Assembly: GCF_014836545.1 (NCBI RefSeq)
Contig: NZ_JACSQS010000001.1
Span: 238,928-302,927 of the forward strand
Reading direction: 5' to 3'
Source: Stenotrophomonas lacuserhaii
GTDB lineage: Bacteria; Pseudomonadota; Gammaproteobacteria; Xanthomonadales; Xanthomonadaceae
Length of the DNA stretch: 64,000 nucleotides
Made by a program: the position numbers and the translations under genes. Shown here in pieces: positions 36,504 to 44,008 of the stretch; within the stretch, counting starts at the first letter, position 1; every line of letters starts with the position of its first letter. The notes beneath the pieces are model-generated. The model was not told the origin of the DNA. It worked only from the letters and a program-made list of their open reading frames with translations, and did no database searches.

Positions 36504-36692
36504 TCAGGCGGGCGGGGTGGTCGCGGTGGTGACCATGCCCGTCAGGGCGTCGAAAAGGGTTTCGAAGAAGTCCCGGATCGCCGGGCCGGCGACGGCGACC
36601 AGGGCGCCGGCGACGAGCGCCGCCAGCAGGCCGTATTCCAGCGCGGTGACGCCGTCTTCTTCTTTCAGGAACGTGCGGATCGATGCATTCAT
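36504..36692 (-). CDS. flp: Flp/Fap type IVb major pilin
   Basis: This 62-residue protein is the structural subunit of the Tad pilus. The prepilin leader ends at G-V (LKEEDGVTALEYGLLAALVA): cleavage after Gly leaves VTALEYGLL with the conserved Glu-Tyr pair of Flp pilins. The hydrophobic helix is followed by a short helical tail (RDFFETLFDALTGMVTTATT). It is first in the minus-strand block and has a strong AAGGAG site, consistent with high expression. A 109-bp gap separates it from the peptidase gene, where a processing or partial termination site would fit. Confidence 0.96.
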   Translation of the reverse strand: MNASIRTFLKEEDGVTALEYGLLAALVAGALVAVAGPAIRDFFETLFDALTGMVTTATTPPA

Positions 36693-37277
36693 GACGGTTT
36701 TCTCCTTATACCTGTCAACGGTTGCATGGCAGTTCCTCTGGATTAACCGGACGTGGCCGGGGTGATAATCAAAAGGCCATGCGAGGGCGCGGCCGACTTA
36801 ATGCGGCCGTGGATACAGGTGGCAGGTTCCAAGGATCAAACACCGCGCCGCCGCCACCGGCGCCGTCGCTTCCATAGATAGTGGGATGTGCGTCACATCG
36901 CCACGTTTCCCCCGGGTAGCCAGATGTCCCCCGGCCAACCACCGTGTTCGTACTGTGCCGTAGTTTCACCCAGCGGCTACATCAATCAATACGCAAATTC
37001 GGCACGAATTCGAAATCGGCCGGCCTGCGGTGGCCGTTACCGTGATCATTTCCGTTTGGATCGTATTAAACCAAGCCGGGCATTCGATGGGCGACGGAAA
37101 ATTGACGCCCGCCACTTAACCGTTAATGTGACGACCGCCACGGAGTTTAGGCAGGTTTACGGCCAGAGATAATCAGGCATACTCGGCGGCAAGAAATGCA
37201 AAGGGCTGCAGCAACCGCAGGAATGTTGCTTTCGCAGGCCGCCGTACGGAACCAGGAAAAGGGGGGTCGTCACTGTC
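36693..37277. promoter_or_regulatory. 585-bp divergent regulatory region between flp and the AraC gene
   Basis: There is no convincing gene. The region is less GC-rich than its neighbours in the middle (36960-37080). It contains TTAAC-C-GTTAA at 37116-37126 and the word ATTCGGCA at 36997-37004, which is the reverse of TGCCGAAT, the core of the repeat array before the adhesin gene. Both the pilin promoter (minus) and the AraC-gene promoter (plus) must lie here. No clear sigma-54 or -35/-10 pair was found. Confidence 0.5.
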
Positions 37278-38267
37278 ATGGCAGATGGTGTGGGAAGCGA
37301 GAGCACGGATGGGTTGAGGCCGATGGACCTGGCCACGCTGGGCAACGTGCTGCGCGTGTGCGAGGTGGAACTGGTGCTGCTGGATGGCAACGGACCGCGC
37401 GCTGCAGTGGATGCGCGGGTACAGGATGAAGCGTTGTTCTGCCACGCGGTCACCGGCTTCCAGGCACGTGGCCGGTTCATGCTGCCTACCGACTGGGCCC
37501 TGCTGGGCTACGTGCATGCATCGGACCCGGCCCTGAGCTGGTGCCACGGTGTGCCACTGACCGCAGGCACGGTGTTGACCGTGTTGCCGGATGGCATCAG
37601 CGAGTTCGCGCTCGGCGCAGGCACGCGCCTGACCCTGGTGATGGTGTCCGCGGCGCGGCTGCAACGCAAGCTGGCCGAACTCAGCCTGCGCAGCATGCCA
37701 CCGTCCGGCCAGGCACTGAATCTGTTCTCGATGGCAGAACATTCGCCGCTCGCCAGCCACTATCGCCAGCTGCAGGATGCACTGGCGGCAGGCGACACTG
37801 CGGCAATGGCGGCCGAGGGCAGCGAGCGACTGCTGCACGAGCACGTGCAGGCACTGCTGGCGGCCGGACCGGGCGAGCAGGCGATGAACACCCGTGCGCG
37901 GCGTACCCATTACCTGATCGTGCAACGGGCCGAGAACTTCATGCGCCTCAACCTGCGGCGCAACATCTACATGAACGAGATCTGTGACGCGGCGGGGGTC
38001 AGTGAGCGTGGCCTGCGCTATGCGTTCGAGGATCTGTTCGGGATCTCGCCCAACCGCTACCTGTCGATGCTGCGGTTGTGCGCGGCGTGCCGCGGATTGT
38101 CGATGGCCGACGGTGGCCGGCGGTCAGTCAAGTCGATCGCGCTCAGCTGCGGCCTGTGGGATCTTTCGCGTTTCGCCGACAACTATCGCAAGGTGTTCGG
38201 CGAACTGCCACGCGACACGCTGATGCGCGCACCCGGTGCGCCAGGGATCGTCGGGCAACCTGCCTGA
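37278..38267 (+). CDS. AraC family regulator of the attachment locus
   Basis: The 329-residue protein has an N-terminal ~210-residue sensor region and a C-terminal AraC HTH (NIYMNEICDAAGVSERGLRY, FEDLFGISPNRYLSMLRLCA, SIALSCGLWDLSRFADNYRK). The N-terminal part (GRFMLPTDWALLGYVHASDP, LTAGTVLTVLPDGISEF) looks like a cupin-type barrel found in AraC proteins that respond to surface or metabolic cues. It stands between the divergent Tad operon and the adhesin operon, so control of one or both is likely. Four phased direct repeats lie 30-115 bp after its stop and before the adhesin. The first ATG is used; one 15 codons later is possible. Confidence 0.85.
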   Translation: MADGVGSESTDGLRPMDLATLGNVLRVCEVELVLLDGNGPRAAVDARVQDEALFCHAVTGFQARGRFMLPTDWALLGYVHASDPALSWCHGVPLTAGTVLTVLPDGISEFALGAGTRLTLVMVSAARLQRKLAELSLRSMPPSGQALNLFSMAEHSPLASHYRQLQDALAAGDTAAMAAEGSERLLHEHVQALLAAGPGEQAMNTRARRTHYLIVQRAENFMRLNLRRNIYMNEICDAAGVSERGLRYAFEDLFGISPNRYLSMLRLCAACRGLSMADGGRRSVKSIALSCGLWDLSRFADNYRKVFGELPRDTLMRAPGAPGIVGQPA

Positions 38268-38297: not shown

Positions 38298-38381
38298 TGC
38301 CGAATTGGTGCATCGCGCTGCCGAATCTGGTCGAGGTCTTGCCGGAATGCGCGCTTGCCCTGCCGGAATGAAGTGCCCCGC
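38298..38381 (+). promoter_or_regulatory. four direct repeats with exact 21-bp period upstream of the adhesin gene
   Basis: TGCCGAAT starts at 38298 and 38319, and TGCCGGAAT at 38340 and 38361; every step is 21 bp, about two turns of the helix. The array is 86-169 bp upstream of the adhesin ATG, where activator sites would lie. A CTGCC-AGCA-GGCAG hairpin at 38412-38425 sits in the presumed leader. The adjacent AraC regulator is the best candidate to bind, since AraC proteins often use direct repeats on one helix face. Confidence 0.65.
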
Positions 38382-38466
38382 CACCATTGCACGCGCTGAA
38401 ATAGGAGTCACCTGCCAGCAGGCAGATCTCTGACTCACGAAGCGTCGTCCACGGGGGACTGAACTC

Positions 38467-41400
38467 ATGAATCGTATTTTCCGCTTGGTGTGGAGCAGGC
38501 AGCTGCGCGCCATGGTCGTGGCCTCTGAACTGGCCACCGGCGCCCACGGCGCCTCCTCGCTCATCGATCAACGTGCCGCGCTGCCGGCCCCCGCGCTCCT
38601 GGCCGTTGCCCTGGCACTTGCCTTGTGCGCCGGTACCGCAACCGCTTCGGAGAACAACCAGACCCTGCGCGACCTGCAGGCACTCGCGGCCAAGTACACC
38701 CAGCAGGCCCCGGTCAAGGTGGACGCGGACGTGGCGCTGGCCGCCATCGCCGGGCAGCCTGCGGGCAATGCCTTGGCCAACGTCGATGCCAGCGTTTCGT
38801 TGGGGGTTGCCCGCCGCCTGCCGGTGGTTCGGCATGTACTGCCGGCGAAGGTGGACGTCGTAGCTGCTGTGCGCACGCCGAACGTCGCCAAGCCTGCACC
38901 GTCAGTTGCCGCACAGCTGGGCGTCAATGCGGCAGTGGGCGCAGCGGATGCGCCTTCGGGCACGCTTGCTGCGATCAACGCCTCGGTCGATGCCGGCATC
39001 GCCGTCGCACCGACCCCGGCCTCGCTGGTGCAGGCAAAGCTGGCTACCGCAGTGGACGCGGAGGTCGCGGGCAGCCACGCACTGGATGCGAAGGTTGCTG
39101 CCGAAGCAGCCGTCCGCCTGGCTGCCAAGGACGAAGAACGGATCGCCACCGATGCCGCGGTCAGCGCCGCGCTGGATACCGGCGTGGCCGGTGGCGTGGG
39201 CGTGGGGGGTGAAGCCCACCTGCTGGCGGTGGCCGACCGCAATCCGAAGCTGGCCACCCAGGCGACCGCCGCAGCGCAGGCCAGCGGGCTCAATCTGGGC
39301 AGCGTGGTCGGGGGTGTCGGATCGCTGCTGGATGGCGTCGGCAACGCGGTCGGCGGCCTGGTCCAGGGCGACCTGGGCGGGGTCGTCGGCGGGGTCGTGG
39401 GGGGCGTAGGCGGACTGGTCGGTGGCGTAACCGATGGCCTCGGCCTGTCATCGCCCTCGGCCATCCCCCCGACCAGCCCGAAGGCGCCGCGCCCGGCCGA
39501 TCCCAATTCCGGCCTGATCATCGGCAGCGGTGGCCTGGTCGGCACCCTGTCCACGCTGGTCGGCCCGACCGCGCAGGGCCTGCTCGGCGGCGATGGCTAC
39601 GTCCGCAACGGCAACCTGGCCGTCAACAGTGCCAACGTGCAGCAGACCTATTCGGTCACCAACGTGCTCGGCCTGCCGGTGGTCAACCTGACCCCGGTCG
39701 GCACCCTGCTCAACGGATTGGGCGGTGCCACCACCGGCGGCAGTTCGCACCTGACCCTGATCGGCGGAGTGACCTCGGACAGCTACATCTACAACATCAA
39801 CAACGGCGACCCCAATGGCCTGCTCGGCCTGGTGCTGCCGGGCCAGGCGCCGGACTGGGCCGCCTCGTGCCTGAATGTGCTGGGCGCCGTATCGATCGAT
39901 TGCTGGGCGGTCAACCCGGCCCAGGACTACCAGGTGCTGGTGGGCGATGGTGCGTATGCCAATGGCTCGCGTGAAGTGGTGATCGGCGCCAACGCCAGCC
40001 ACCGGCTGCCGATGCAGGATGCCAACCTCGCGTTCCCGGGCATTGACGAGAACGATCCGACCGATCCGACCGGGGTGCCGACCGCCGACTATGCCGCACG
40101 CATGGGCCATTCGGTGATCGTCGGCGACAGCGCCAGCGGCACCGCCAACGGCCAGGTGCTGCTGGGTGCCGAAGCCACGTCCGACAAGGCCAACAGCGTG
40201 GCGCTGGGCTACCGTTCCAGCGCGCTGCGTGGCGCACAGGCCAGCTACAACGCGTATGGCCTGGACACCGCGCAGGTATCCAGCGGCGAAGTGTCGGTGG
40301 GCTTTGCTGGCGGAGAGCGGCAGATCAGCAACGTGGCCGCCGGCAGCCTGGGCACCGATGCGGTCAACGTCGCGCAGCTGCAGGGTGCGGTCGAGCTGAT
40401 CAACGATGTCGGTGTGATGGCGATCACCTACGACGACGATGGCACCGGCGCGCCGGACTATCGTCGTGCCACCCTGGGCGGCGGCACCGGTACCACCACG
40501 CTGGCCAATGTGGCCGATGGCGTGGATGCCAATGATGCGGTCAACGTGGGTCAACTGCAGGCGGTGGAGCAGGGTGCCGTGCGCTACGACGTGGCCGCCG
40601 ACAACAGCATCGATTACCGCAACGCGACGCTCGGCAATGGCAGTGGCACCACCCGGCTGGGCAACCTCAGCAATGGGCTGGTCGCGGCAGGCAGCACCGA
40701 GGCCATCACCGGCGCCCAGTTGTCGTCCACCAATGAAGCGCTGGTGGCCTATTTCGGTGGCACCACCGCGTTCGATCCGGCCACCGCGCTGTTCACCGCG
40801 CCGGCCTTTGCGATCACCTCGGTCGCGGCCGACGGCGTGCTGGCCCCGGGTGTCTATGACAACGCCAGCGATGCCTTCGCAGCGGTGGATGGCTCTCTGG
40901 TCAACCTCAACACCCAGATCAACGACATCCGCAACGGCGAAGCATCGCGCTTCTTCAAGGTCAACTCGGCCGGCGTGGATGCTGCTGCCGGCGGCCTGGA
41001 ATCGATCGCCATCGGCGGTGGCGCCAGCGCTACGGCGGCCGACGCGGTGGCGATCGGCTCGGGCAGCATCGCCGACCGCGATGGCACGGTGTCCATCGGC
41101 GCCGCCGGTGCCGAGCGCCAGCTGGCCAACGTCGCCGATGCGACAGCGGCCACCGATGCGGTGAACCTGGGCCAGCTGCAGGCTTCCGAACAAGGCGCGC
41201 TGCGCTATGACATCGCCGCCGATGGCAGCGTGGATTACAGCAGCGCCACGTTGGGCAGCGGCACCACCGCGACCACGCTGAGCAACCTTGGGGCAGGCGA
41301 GGTATCGGCCACCAGCAGCGAGGCGATCAACGGCGCGCAGCTGTTCGGCAGCAGCCAGTCCGTGGCCACCCATCTGGGGGGCGGTGCCGGCGTGGATGCC

Positions 41401-43095
41401 GGCGGCGCGATCACTGCGCCGACCTACACGCTCAACAACGTCGCCGTGGATGGCAGCCTCAGCAGTGGCGACTACAACGACGTGGGCAGCGCCTTCGATG
41501 CCGTCAGCACCTCGCTGGCCAACGTCGCCGACAAGACCGATACGGTCGACCGCCTGGCAGTGAAGTACGACGCCGACATGGCAGGCAACGCGAGCAACCG
41601 CATCACCCTGGCCGGTGACGGCACGGGCACTGCGGTGGTGCTGGACAACCTGGCCGACGGCAGCGTGACCGCCGGCAGCCGCCAAGCGGTCACCGGCAAC
41701 CAGCTGTCGGCGACCCACCAGACCGTGGCGAGCTACTTCGGAGGGACCACAATGTACGACGGCGGAAGCAACACCTGGACCGCGCCGACCTTCCGGGTCT
41801 CCTCCATCGCCACCGATGGCACCGTGACCGGCAACGACTACGGCAACGTGACGGTCGCATTCTCGGCCGTGGATTCCTCGCTGCTCAACATCAACCAGCG
41901 CATCGACAACATCGCCGGTGGCAACCCGTTCCTGGCAGTGAATTCGGCCAAGGCCGGCGCCACCGCCAGTGGTGTCGATGCGGTGGCGGTCGGGCCTGAA
42001 GCCAGCGCAGCCGGAGCGGCCAGCGTGGCGATCGGCGATGGCGCCGATGCGTCGGCCGACAACAGCGTGGCGCTGGGCGCAGGCTCGGTTGCCGATACCG
42101 GGGCGCAATCCGGCTACACCGGCGCCTATGGGCTGGCCGGATCCAGCAGTTCGGCAGGCGAAGTGTCGGTGGGCAGCAGCGGCAGCGAGCGCAAGGTCAC
42201 CCACGTGGCAGACGGTTCGGAGCGCTACGACGCGGTCAATGTCGGCCAGCTGCAGAACGGGGTGAACTACGCCATCGACGAATCCAAGAGCTACACCGAC
42301 CAGCAGATCAACAACATCAACAACGGCACTTCGGGCATGTTCCAGGTGAACAACTCGCAGGGGCTGGCCAACCCGTCGGCCAGCGGGGCCAACGCGGCCG
42401 CCGGTGGTGCCGGTTCCAGTGCAGCGGGCGCCAATGCCACCGCGCTGGGCAATGGCGCGCAGGCACAGGCCGACAACACGGTGGCATTGGGTGCCGGCTC
42501 GGTCGCCGACCGTGACAACACGGTGTCGGTGGGCAGCGCAGGGGCGGAGCGGCAGATCGCCAACGTGGCCGATGGCAGCCAGGCCACCGACGCGGTCAAT
42601 GTCCGCCAGCTGCAGGCCTCGCAGCAAGGAACGCTGCGCTATGACAACAACACCAACGGCACCACCAACTTCAGCAGCGTCACCCTCGGGCAGGCGGGCA
42701 GTGGGCCGACCCAGGTACGCAATGTCGCTGCCGGTACCGCCGGCACCGACGCGGTCAACGTGGACCAGCTGCGCAGCGGCATGGCGCAGACCCTGGACTG
42801 GTCCAAGGCCTACACCGATGAGCGCATGGACGGCTTCGACCGCAACCTGAAGCGGACCGATGACCGCGCTTCGGCCGGTATCGCCTCGGCGATGGCAGTG
42901 GCCTCCCTGCCACAGCCCAGCGAAGCCGGCCGCAGCATGGCGTCGTTCGCGGCGGGCAGTTTCAACGGCGAATCGGGCATGGCGGTCGGTCTTTCCGGCG
43001 TCTCCGATGGCGGGCGCTGGATCTACAAGTTCAGCGGTTCGACCAATACCCGCGGTGATGGCGGGGTGGCCGTAGGTGCCGGCATCCAGTGGTAA
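38467..43095 (+). CDS. trimeric autotransporter adhesin (YadA-like)
   Basis: The 1542-residue product begins with an ESPR-type extended signal (MNRIFRLVWSRQLRAMVVAS) and hydrophobic core ending near TATASE. Residues ~55-275 are an unusual Ala-rich region; ~277-330 is a Gly/Val zipper (NAVGGLVQGDLGGVVGGVVG). From ~500 on come YadA-type head repeats (SVALGYRSSALRGAQ, AVAIGSGSIADRDGTVSIGA), about nine neck-like motifs (TDAVNVAQLQ, NDAVNVGQLQ, SEAITGAQL and others), five 'RYD...TLG' modules and three 'YFGG...SVAADG' modules. The C-terminal ~90 residues are the YadA anchor (FDRNLKRTDDRASAGIASAM to GVAVGAGIQW). It should trimerise on the outer membrane and mediate attachment and autoagglutination. 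The start has GGGGGA upstream. It is co-directed with an SmpA/OmpA lipoprotein gene. Confidence 0.95.
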   Translation: MNRIFRLVWSRQLRAMVVASELATGAHGASSLIDQRAALPAPALLAVALALALCAGTATASENNQTLRDLQALAAKYTQQAPVKVDADVALAAIAGQPAGNALANVDASVSLGVARRLPVVRHVLPAKVDVVAAVRTPNVAKPAPSVAAQLGVNAAVGAADAPSGTLAAINASVDAGIAVAPTPASLVQAKLATAVDAEVAGSHALDAKVAAEAAVRLAAKDEERIATDAAVSAALDTGVAGGVGVGGEAHLLAVADRNPKLATQATAAAQASGLNLGSVVGGVGSLLDGVGNAVGGLVQGDLGGVVGGVVGGVGGLVGGVTDGLGLSSPSAIPPTSPKAPRPADPNSGLIIGSGGLVGTLSTLVGPTAQGLLGGDGYVRNGNLAVNSANVQQTYSVTNVLGLPVVNLTPVGTLLNGLGGATTGGSSHLTLIGGVTSDSYIYNINNGDPNGLLGLVLPGQAPDWAASCLNVLGAVSIDCWAVNPAQDYQVLVGDGAYANGSREVVIGANASHRLPMQDANLAFPGIDENDPTDPTGVPTADYAARMGHSVIVGDSASGTANGQVLLGAEATSDKANSVALGYRSSALRGAQASYNAYGLDTAQVSSGEVSVGFAGGERQISNVAAGSLGTDAVNVAQLQGAVELINDVGVMAITYDDDGTGAPDYRRATLGGGTGTTTLANVADGVDANDAVNVGQLQAVEQGAVRYDVAADNSIDYRNATLGNGSGTTRLGNLSNGLVAAGSTEAITGAQLSSTNEALVAYFGGTTAFDPATALFTAPAFAITSVAADGVLAPGVYDNASDAFAAVDGSLVNLNTQINDIRNGEASRFFKVNSAGVDAAAGGLESIAIGGGASATAADAVAIGSGSIADRDGTVSIGAAGAERQLANVADATAATDAVNLGQLQASEQGALRYDIAADGSVDYSSATLGSGTTATTLSNLGAGEVSATSSEAINGAQLFGSSQSVATHLGGGAGVDAGGAITAPTYTLNNVAVDGSLSSGDYNDVGSAFDAVSTSLANVADKTDTVDRLAVKYDADMAGNASNRITLAGDGTGTAVVLDNLADGSVTAGSRQAVTGNQLSATHQTVASYFGGTTMYDGGSNTWTAPTFRVSSIATDGTVTGNDYGNVTVAFSAVDSSLLNINQRIDNIAGGNPFLAVNSAKAGATASGVDAVAVGPEASAAGAASVAIGDGADASADNSVALGAGSVADTGAQSGYTGAYGLAGSSSSAGEVSVGSSGSERKVTHVADGSERYDAVNVGQLQNGVNYAIDESKSYTDQQINNINNGTSGMFQVNNSQGLANPSASGANAAAGGAGSSAAGANATALGNGAQAQADNTVALGAGSVADRDNTVSVGSAGAERQIANVADGSQATDAVNVRQLQASQQGTLRYDNNTNGTTNFSSVTLGQAGSGPTQVRNVAAGTAGTDAVNVDQLRSGMAQTLDWSKAYTDERMDGFDRNLKRTDDRASAGIASAMAVASLPQPSEAGRSMASFAAGSFNGESGMAVGLSGVSDGGRWIYKFSGSTNTRGDGGVAVGAGIQW

Positions 43096-43159: not shown

Positions 43160-44008
43160 ATGGACACGACGAATACGCATTACCGGGCGCTGCGCGGCGT
43201 GCTGCTGCCCGCCCTGCTGGCCTGCATCACGCTGGCCGGCTGCCGCAGCCATGGCGCGGCGGGCGAGGCACCGGTTGCCGGCAGCCCCGCCGGCGAAGCG
43301 GTGAGCTTCCCGGAGCCCGGCAAGGCCGCGCTGAAGGAAGGCGTGTTCGCCGACCCGGCCGACCTGCGCCGCTTCGCACCGGGCATGAGCAAGCGCCAGC
43401 TCTACGCGTTGCTGGGCACGCCACACTTCAACGAAGGCATGTGGGGCGTGCGTGAGTGGAACTACCTGTTCAACTTCCGCACCCCGCAGCGCAGTGAGTA
43501 CTTCACCTGCCAGTTCCAGGTGCGGTTCGATGGCAAGGGCATCGCGCAGGGCGGGTACTGGAAGCCGCAGTCGTGCGCTGCGCTGGTGGAACCGCCGCCG
43601 CCGCCCACTGCTGGTTTGCCCGCAGCGTTACCGCAGGAGCCGCTGCGGCTGGCTGCTGATGCCCTGTTCGCCTTCGACAGTGCCGAGCTGAGTGCCGCCG
43701 GCCGCCGTGCAGTGGACGGGGTGCTTGGCCAGGTGCAACGGGCCAGCGAGGTGCAGCGGATCGAGGTGGTCGGTCATACCGATCGCATCGGTAGCCCGTC
43801 CTACAACCAGACGCTGTCCACGCGTCGTGCCGAGGCCGTGCGCAGTGCGCTGGTGGAAGGCGGAGTGGCCAGCGGGACGATCCGTGCCGAGGGCCGCGGC
43901 GCTGCCGAACCGCTGGTGCAGTGCGACCAGCGCAGCCAGCCGGCGTTGATCGCCTGCCTTGCGCCGAACCGCCGGGTGCAGATATCCGGGCGTGCCCGGA
44001 TCGACTGA
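43160..44008 (+). CDS. SmpA/OmlA-OmpA fusion lipoprotein, TpgA-like adhesin partner
   Basis: The 282-residue product has a lipoprotein signal (LLPALLACITLAGCRS, lipobox LAGC). Residues ~60-140 form an SmpA/OmlA-like fold (LRRFAPGMSKRQLYALLGTP, REWNYLFNFRTP). Residues ~165-280 are an OmpA-C peptidoglycan-binding domain (ALFAFDSAELSAAGRRAVDG, VVGHTDRIGSPSYNQTLSTR, CLAPNRRVQI). In Acinetobacter, TpgA is a peptidoglycan-binding lipoprotein coupled to the trimeric autotransporter AtaA; domain content and gene order match here. The start at 43160 is preceded by AGGGGGAA. It is likely to stabilise adhesin insertion or anchor it to the wall. Identity to TpgA itself was not checked. Confidence 0.85.
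   Translation: MDTTNTHYRALRGVLLPALLACITLAGCRSHGAAGEAPVAGSPAGEAVSFPEPGKAALKEGVFADPADLRRFAPGMSKRQLYALLGTPHFNEGMWGVREWNYLFNFRTPQRSEYFTCQFQVRFDGKGIAQGGYWKPQSCAALVEPPPPPTAGLPAALPQEPLRLAADALFAFDSAELSAAGRRAVDGVLGQVQRASEVQRIEVVGHTDRIGSPSYNQTLSTRRAEAVRSALVEGGVASGTIRAEGRGAAEPLVQCDQRSQPALIACLAPNRRVQISGRARID

Follow-up and report, generated by a model that had tools for sequence, protein, structure and literature searches.

The araI1 and araI2 sites of the E. coli araBAD promoter are two adjacent AraC-family sites, arranged as direct repeats upstream of the -35 region and spaced by two helical turns. The virulence-factor regulators ToxT, Rns and ExsA, also AraC-type, have paired sites near the -35 of pilus or secretion genes, and none of them is known to use a conserved four-unit array. 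Of the two araBAD sites, the distal is the stronger binder, and recruitment of RNA polymerase falls to the proximal one (PMC4760080). Direct repeats can be bound by AraC-family proteins because their dimerisation and DNA-binding domains are flexibly joined (PMC9723621). In Sinorhizobium meliloti, the AraC-type protein CuxR is a c-di-GMP-responsive activator of genes for a surface product, exopolysaccharide (PMC7499043, PMC12538310). At the fha promoter of Bordetella, BvgA dimers sit 22 bp apart on one face of the DNA, a strong distal site nucleating the weaker ones up to the -35 (PMC7250471).

Here we analysed a window (the whole stretch of 64,000 nucleotides of Stenotrophomonas lacuserhaii DNA) in which an AraC/XylS-type regulator gene lies between a tad pilus operon and a trimeric autotransporter adhesin gene. 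The candidate sites resemble araI1-araI2 in being direct repeats, putatively for an AraC-family protein, upstream of an inferred -35 region. Unlike the two sites there, four are present here (three to four-plus-two among relatives) with an unrelated motif, and one locus would serve two surface-structure promoters. The regulator shares the domain plan of ToxT, Rns and ExsA but differs from them in its low identity and its motif. The predicted N-terminal domain has its closest structural counterpart in CuxR (5nla, Z 13.6, rmsd 3.6 over 172 residues), at about 15% identity. BvgA belongs to a different protein family, being a response regulator on inverted heptads rather than an AraC-type protein on asymmetric direct repeats, and may be compared in its mode of work only. 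An AraC-type direct-repeat operator is a known kind of system. The length of this array, its conservation and the use of one regulator for both a trimeric adhesin and a Tad pilus seem not to have been described in the searchable open-licence literature, where we found no paper on this regulator or its sites, or on an AraC-type regulator paired with this adhesin or pilus in Stenotrophomonas. In the genome paper of K279a, a TadE-like cluster and YadA-family adhesins are listed, with no mention of such a regulator in the sections consulted (PMC2643945).

Results

The features of the locus, numbered from the first letter of the window, are as follows.

36504..36692, minus strand: flp, encoding the pilin and heading the minus-strand tad operon
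36963..36968, minus strand: putative -10-like box of flp, TGAAAC, occupying offsets 36-41 relative to the flp half-site, as at R4
36989..37004, minus strand: half-site in the flp promoter, TGCCGAATTTGCGTAT, the same element as R1
37278..38267, plus strand: AraC/XylS-type regulator gene, 329 aa, proposed binder of the repeats (PF12833, E 6.6e-19)
38298..38313, plus strand: R1, distal half-site TGCCGAATTGGTGCAT, the sole unit with a well-kept second box (GYRYAT)
38319..38334, plus strand: R2, half-site TGCCGAATCTGGTCGA, second box degenerate
38340..38355, plus strand: R3, half-site TGCCGGAATGCGCGCT, second box degenerate
38361..38376, plus strand: R4, promoter-proximal half-site TGCCGGAATGAAGTGC, adjoining the inferred -35 region
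38397..38402, plus strand: putative -10-like hexamer of the adhesin promoter, TGAAAT (consensus TGTAAT/TGAAAT), 36 bp beyond the R4 start
38467..43095, plus strand: trimeric autotransporter adhesin gene (ESPR, YadA head, stalk, anchor), 1542 aa
43160..44008, plus strand: OmpA/BamE-domain lipoprotein gene, TpgA-like (NF047726, E 1e-50)

The pentamer TGCCG starts at 38298, 38319, 38340 and 38361, every step being 21 bp; TGCCGAAT occupies 38298-38305 and 38319-38326, and TGCCGGAAT occupies 38340-38348 and 38361-38369. The earlier note had described four repeats phased at 21 bp, placed after the AraC gene and before the adhesin start. Both observations are exact, the array being housed in the 199 bp between the stop of the AraC-type gene (37278-38267) and the ATG of the adhesin gene (38467-43095), and it is single-copy within the 64 kb. 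The repeats also exceeded chance: no four-unit array arose in 100,000 Markov-simulated 199-bp gaps with the dinucleotide content of the gap itself, and 2 of 20,000 simulations contained a 5-mer, whatever its sequence, in four copies at a constant period between 10 and 40 bp.

Regulator orthologs were present in 79 of the 91 genomes of the genus. Searching with a four-unit TGCC(R) pattern at exact 21-bp steps recovered the array beside the regulator in all 79 of these genomes versus none of the 12 regulator-negative ones, counts that are not phylogenetically independent. Two regulator-negative genomes (G004, G067) gave pattern matches of another sequence type, coding-looking and recurrent elsewhere in many genomes. 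A looser three-unit TGCCG pattern was dropped as too unspecific in GC-rich coding DNA. In the loci read directly (L001-L071), four units were seen at regulator identities down to 51%, and the distance from the start of the last unit to a TG(A/T)A(A/C)T hexamer was 36 bp wherever this hexamer was recognised. Other Xanthomonadaceae genera with the regulator gene also carry the array, making five genera in all; a locus from another genus (L137) has three units, with the distance to TGTAAT kept. The repeats and their 21-bp step, which the earlier note wanted to see conserved in close relatives, were found to be so across the genus and in five genera in all, as was the distance to the -10-like box. 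Judged by this comparison, the four repeats are a genuine control site in the DNA, strongly conserved within Stenotrophomonas and among its relatives.

Array length and setting vary in some loci. The S. maltophilia-type loci (L006 and others) have two extra TGCCG units 33 and 12 bp before R1; these are 21 bp apart, and the adhesin ATG follows them at 203 and 182 bp, respectively. Five further loci (L028, L034, L052, L054, L055) have from about 200 to 550 bp inserted between araC and the array, the position of which relative to the adhesin is unchanged despite these insertions.

A 7-aa periodicity runs through the array in one reading frame, as might be expected if the repeats were non-regulatory, whether arising by chance or as selfish DNA, coding for heptads, or belonging to an RNA element at the 3' end of araC. 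The heptad-coding explanation was rejected because the array is intergenic and its spacers diverge. It is the DNA boxes that are conserved, at a fixed distance to the -10-like box, and the same element stands singly in another promoter, that of flp. This pattern of conservation refutes a non-regulatory reading, against which the simulations also speak, and we give it practically no credence.

As to the unit itself, the core TGCCG(G)AAT proposed in the earlier note is real but too short: the unit is a 16-bp two-box element, TGCCGNWWNNGYRYAT, present in R1 and at flp. R1 consists of TGCCG, an A/T-rich step and GYRYAT, while R2-R4 keep TGCCG and the A/T-rich step well, but not the second box. In the aligned arrays, mean information across R1-R4 was 1.0-1.2 bits per base versus 0.2 upstream, values slightly lowered by one locus (L007) that a chance fifth TGCCG displaced by one unit. 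Distances between TGCCG copies in 38 non-redundant arrays peak at 21, 42 and 63 bp, with hardly any others. Asymmetric half-sites repeated directly at two helical turns have the form of an AraC/XylS direct-repeat operator. No good consensus hexamer is found in the -35 region of the adhesin promoter.

The flp gene and the adhesin gene flank the AraC-type gene on opposite sides. A reverse copy of the core, ATTCGGCA, had been noted in the flp promoter region at 36997-37004 and is indeed there, reading TGCCGAAT toward flp; since flp is on the minus strand, this orientation toward flp is that of the array toward the adhesin. The 8-mer ATTCGGCA alone is no rarer than chance (3 found versus 2.0 expected), so that the significance of the flp copy comes from conservation only. 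Across 33 non-redundant loci, the 16-bp TGCCGAWTTTGYRYAT is conserved in flp promoters with the spelling of the first repeat, and information above 1 bit is restricted to positions within 0-15 and to A40 and T41. These last two bases close a -10-like box that is poor and in which no other base is well kept across relatives. From the shared spelling and footprint it follows that R1 and the flp site are the same element. The flp half-site is roughly as far from its -10-like box as R4 is from that of the adhesin, and takes about R4's place. This conservation of the flp core as the same 16-bp element lends comparative support to the hint, also drawn in the earlier note, that pilus and adhesin may be jointly controlled.

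A second site 21 bp from the flp half-site is not conserved in the flp promoters, the pair in L138-L140 excepted, and a single half-site is unusual for a dimeric AraC-type activator. The flp promoters of L138-L140 carry two 16-bp copies 22 bp apart, for example TGCCGATTTTGCATAT then TGCCGATTTTGCGCAT. In some relatives (L035, L038-L040, L060-L062, L137, L142) the element also occurs upstream of araC, on the araC strand, which suggests that araC may be autoregulated in those relatives; the window's own genome has no copy upstream of araC.

In the whole genome TGCCGNWWNNGYRYAT has five matches, one at flp, one at R1 and three inside unrelated ORFs, versus none for the reversed control; all three extra matches being within such ORFs, no further regulon members were found in this genome. 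Among the 297 genomes of the family, TGCCGWWTTTGYRYAT was present in 19 of the 20 that are regulator-positive, every match lying near araC, and in 3 of the 277 that are regulator-negative. The exception among the positives (G149, locus L142) carries TGCCGGTTCCGTGCAT. Canonical Flp is found in exactly the regulator-positive family genomes, except G057. The 12 regulator-negative genomes of the genus are all without flp and 11 of them without tad, of which the twelfth shows no more than a divergent CpaF relative, and flp, regulator and adhesin have been gained or lost largely as one locus. Given this joint inheritance, co-occurrence alone cannot name the owner of the sites; as proof of the binder it is weakened by the absence of flp, and in 11 of 12 of tad, from the regulator-negative genomes of the genus, and by the restriction of canonical Flp to regulator-positive family genomes.

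With flp, regulator and adhesin co-inherited and the sites following the locus, the array might be bound by another protein, such as a response regulator or a global regulator, the AraC-type gene being adjacent through locus inheritance. Response regulators like BvgA do use phased arrays, with 22-bp steps ending at the -35 (PMC7250471). A global regulator, however, would be expected to have sites elsewhere too, whereas almost all genomes have the element at this locus alone, and directly repeated units of two unlike boxes are what AraC-type proteins would be expected to read. Furthermore, three loci (L042, L043, L063) have kept regulator and array where no flp was found and where the adhesin gene has decayed or is absent. 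The form of the two-box element and these partial losses point to the regulator as the owner of the sites, because araC and the array persist after flp and adhesin are gone, and binding by another protein appears very unlikely.

In two loci (L035, L061) the adhesin is cut down to a short ESPR remnant and the array is retained. Where the adhesin is a remnant or gone (L035, L042, L043, L061, L063), R4 and the promoter are starting to diverge.

The regulator is a member of the AraC/XylS family with a C-terminal double-HTH domain, matching PF12833 (HTH_18) and PF00165 (HTH_AraC) above cut-off, and a DNA-binding domain of the PF12833/PF00165 type was matched in 29 of 29 orthologs. Its AlphaFold model (mean pLDDT 80.9) consists of a cupin-like N-terminal and a double-HTH C-terminal domain, and structure comparison matched the DNA-binding fold to 3oio and 3mn2. 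Residues 12-200 of the model form a predicted cupin-like sensing and dimerisation domain similar to those of CuxR (Z 13.6), BgaR (11.9), ExsA (10.8) and AraC (~9.6), with ToxT also among the nearest structural matches; Pfam AraC_binding scored 13.2 bits, below cut-off. Mean identity was 99% in the second HTH helix, 86% in the whole DNA-binding domain and 57% in the N-terminal domain. A near-fixed reading head alongside a near-fixed DNA element would be expected if regulator and operator form a pair, but does not prove that they do. The closest named relative of the regulator is that of S. chelatiphaga (95% identity), and outside the family only weak matches were found, mostly at the HTH level (31-41% identity). 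No clear motif for c-di-GMP sensing by analogy with CuxR was seen in the regulator; such sensing is not indicated, because the sole RxxxR (R223-R227, kept in 26 of 29 orthologs) sits at the start of the DNA-binding domain. Two loci, L022 (G023) and L069 (G076), have one in-frame stop in the regulator (TGA and TAG, respectively) and are otherwise intact, the stops reflecting either real inactivation or sequencing error.

The adhesin has the domains of a type Vc autotransporter, with PF13018, PF05658, PF05662 and PF03895 all above cut-offs. The lipoprotein gene that follows (43160-44008) is probably co-transcribed with it. Its product resembles TpgA of the Acinetobacter AtaA/TpgA pair, although its 172 bits against NF047726 fall short of the >350 required for assignment to TpgA.

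Discussion

Conservation, fixed spacing and the confinement of the element to the locus support the array as a candidate operator of the adjacent AraC-type regulator, as the earlier note had proposed, and at the comparative level its repeats may be interpreted as the binding sites of this regulator. We consider it likely that the array is the tandem 16-bp half-site operator of an adjacent AraC/XylS-type activator, with a single half-site in the flp promoter. From the sequence, spacing, conservation, shared element and confinement observed, we infer the binder and its cooperativity, activation and signal as follows. Each 21-bp unit opens with a half-site, box TGCCG being followed about 11 bp on by second box GYRYAT, of a size and shape that would fit one AraC-type DNA-binding domain with its two HTH motifs in two successive major grooves. 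Since 21 bp is two turns, four subunits would lie on one face of the DNA. Because the match is best in R1 and poorer in R2-R4, binding probably begins at R1, and may spread cooperatively to R4. Adjoining the inferred -35, R4 would bring its subunit into contact with RNA polymerase, as in class II activation of a weak promoter, and the fixed 36 bp between this proximal site and the putative -10-like hexamer would fit a class II site. At flp the same protein would act from one strong half-site whose distance to the -10-like box is similar, so that Tad/Flp pilus and trimeric adhesin would be expressed together, in response to a signal that the N-terminal domain presumably senses.

R4 and the flp site adjoin the inferred -35 position, and the regulator might instead repress both promoters, with R4 blocking RNA polymerase until a signal releases it; some AraC-type proteins do repress without ligand (PMC4760080). 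Yet the -35 region has no good consensus hexamer, and the fixed -10 distance with one-face sites upstream is the arrangement of an activator, which makes repression unlikely. On the favoured reading as an activator, same-face cooperative assembly of four AraC-type subunits (six in some S. maltophilia-type strains) could make the adhesin an unusually steep switch, and the single half-site could give the Tad pilus a different response. We offer only tentatively this dedicated two-output attachment switch, the signal for which is possibly a second messenger.

Among relatives, the locus also comes with three, four or four-plus-two half-sites, a natural series in which operator copy number could be related to the AraC-type response, and the exact bases are now given for testing. 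For Stenotrophomonas, a genus that includes an opportunistic pathogen, these results give a probable dedicated regulator, its operator sequence and a two-target regulon for the Tad pilus and the trimeric adhesin.
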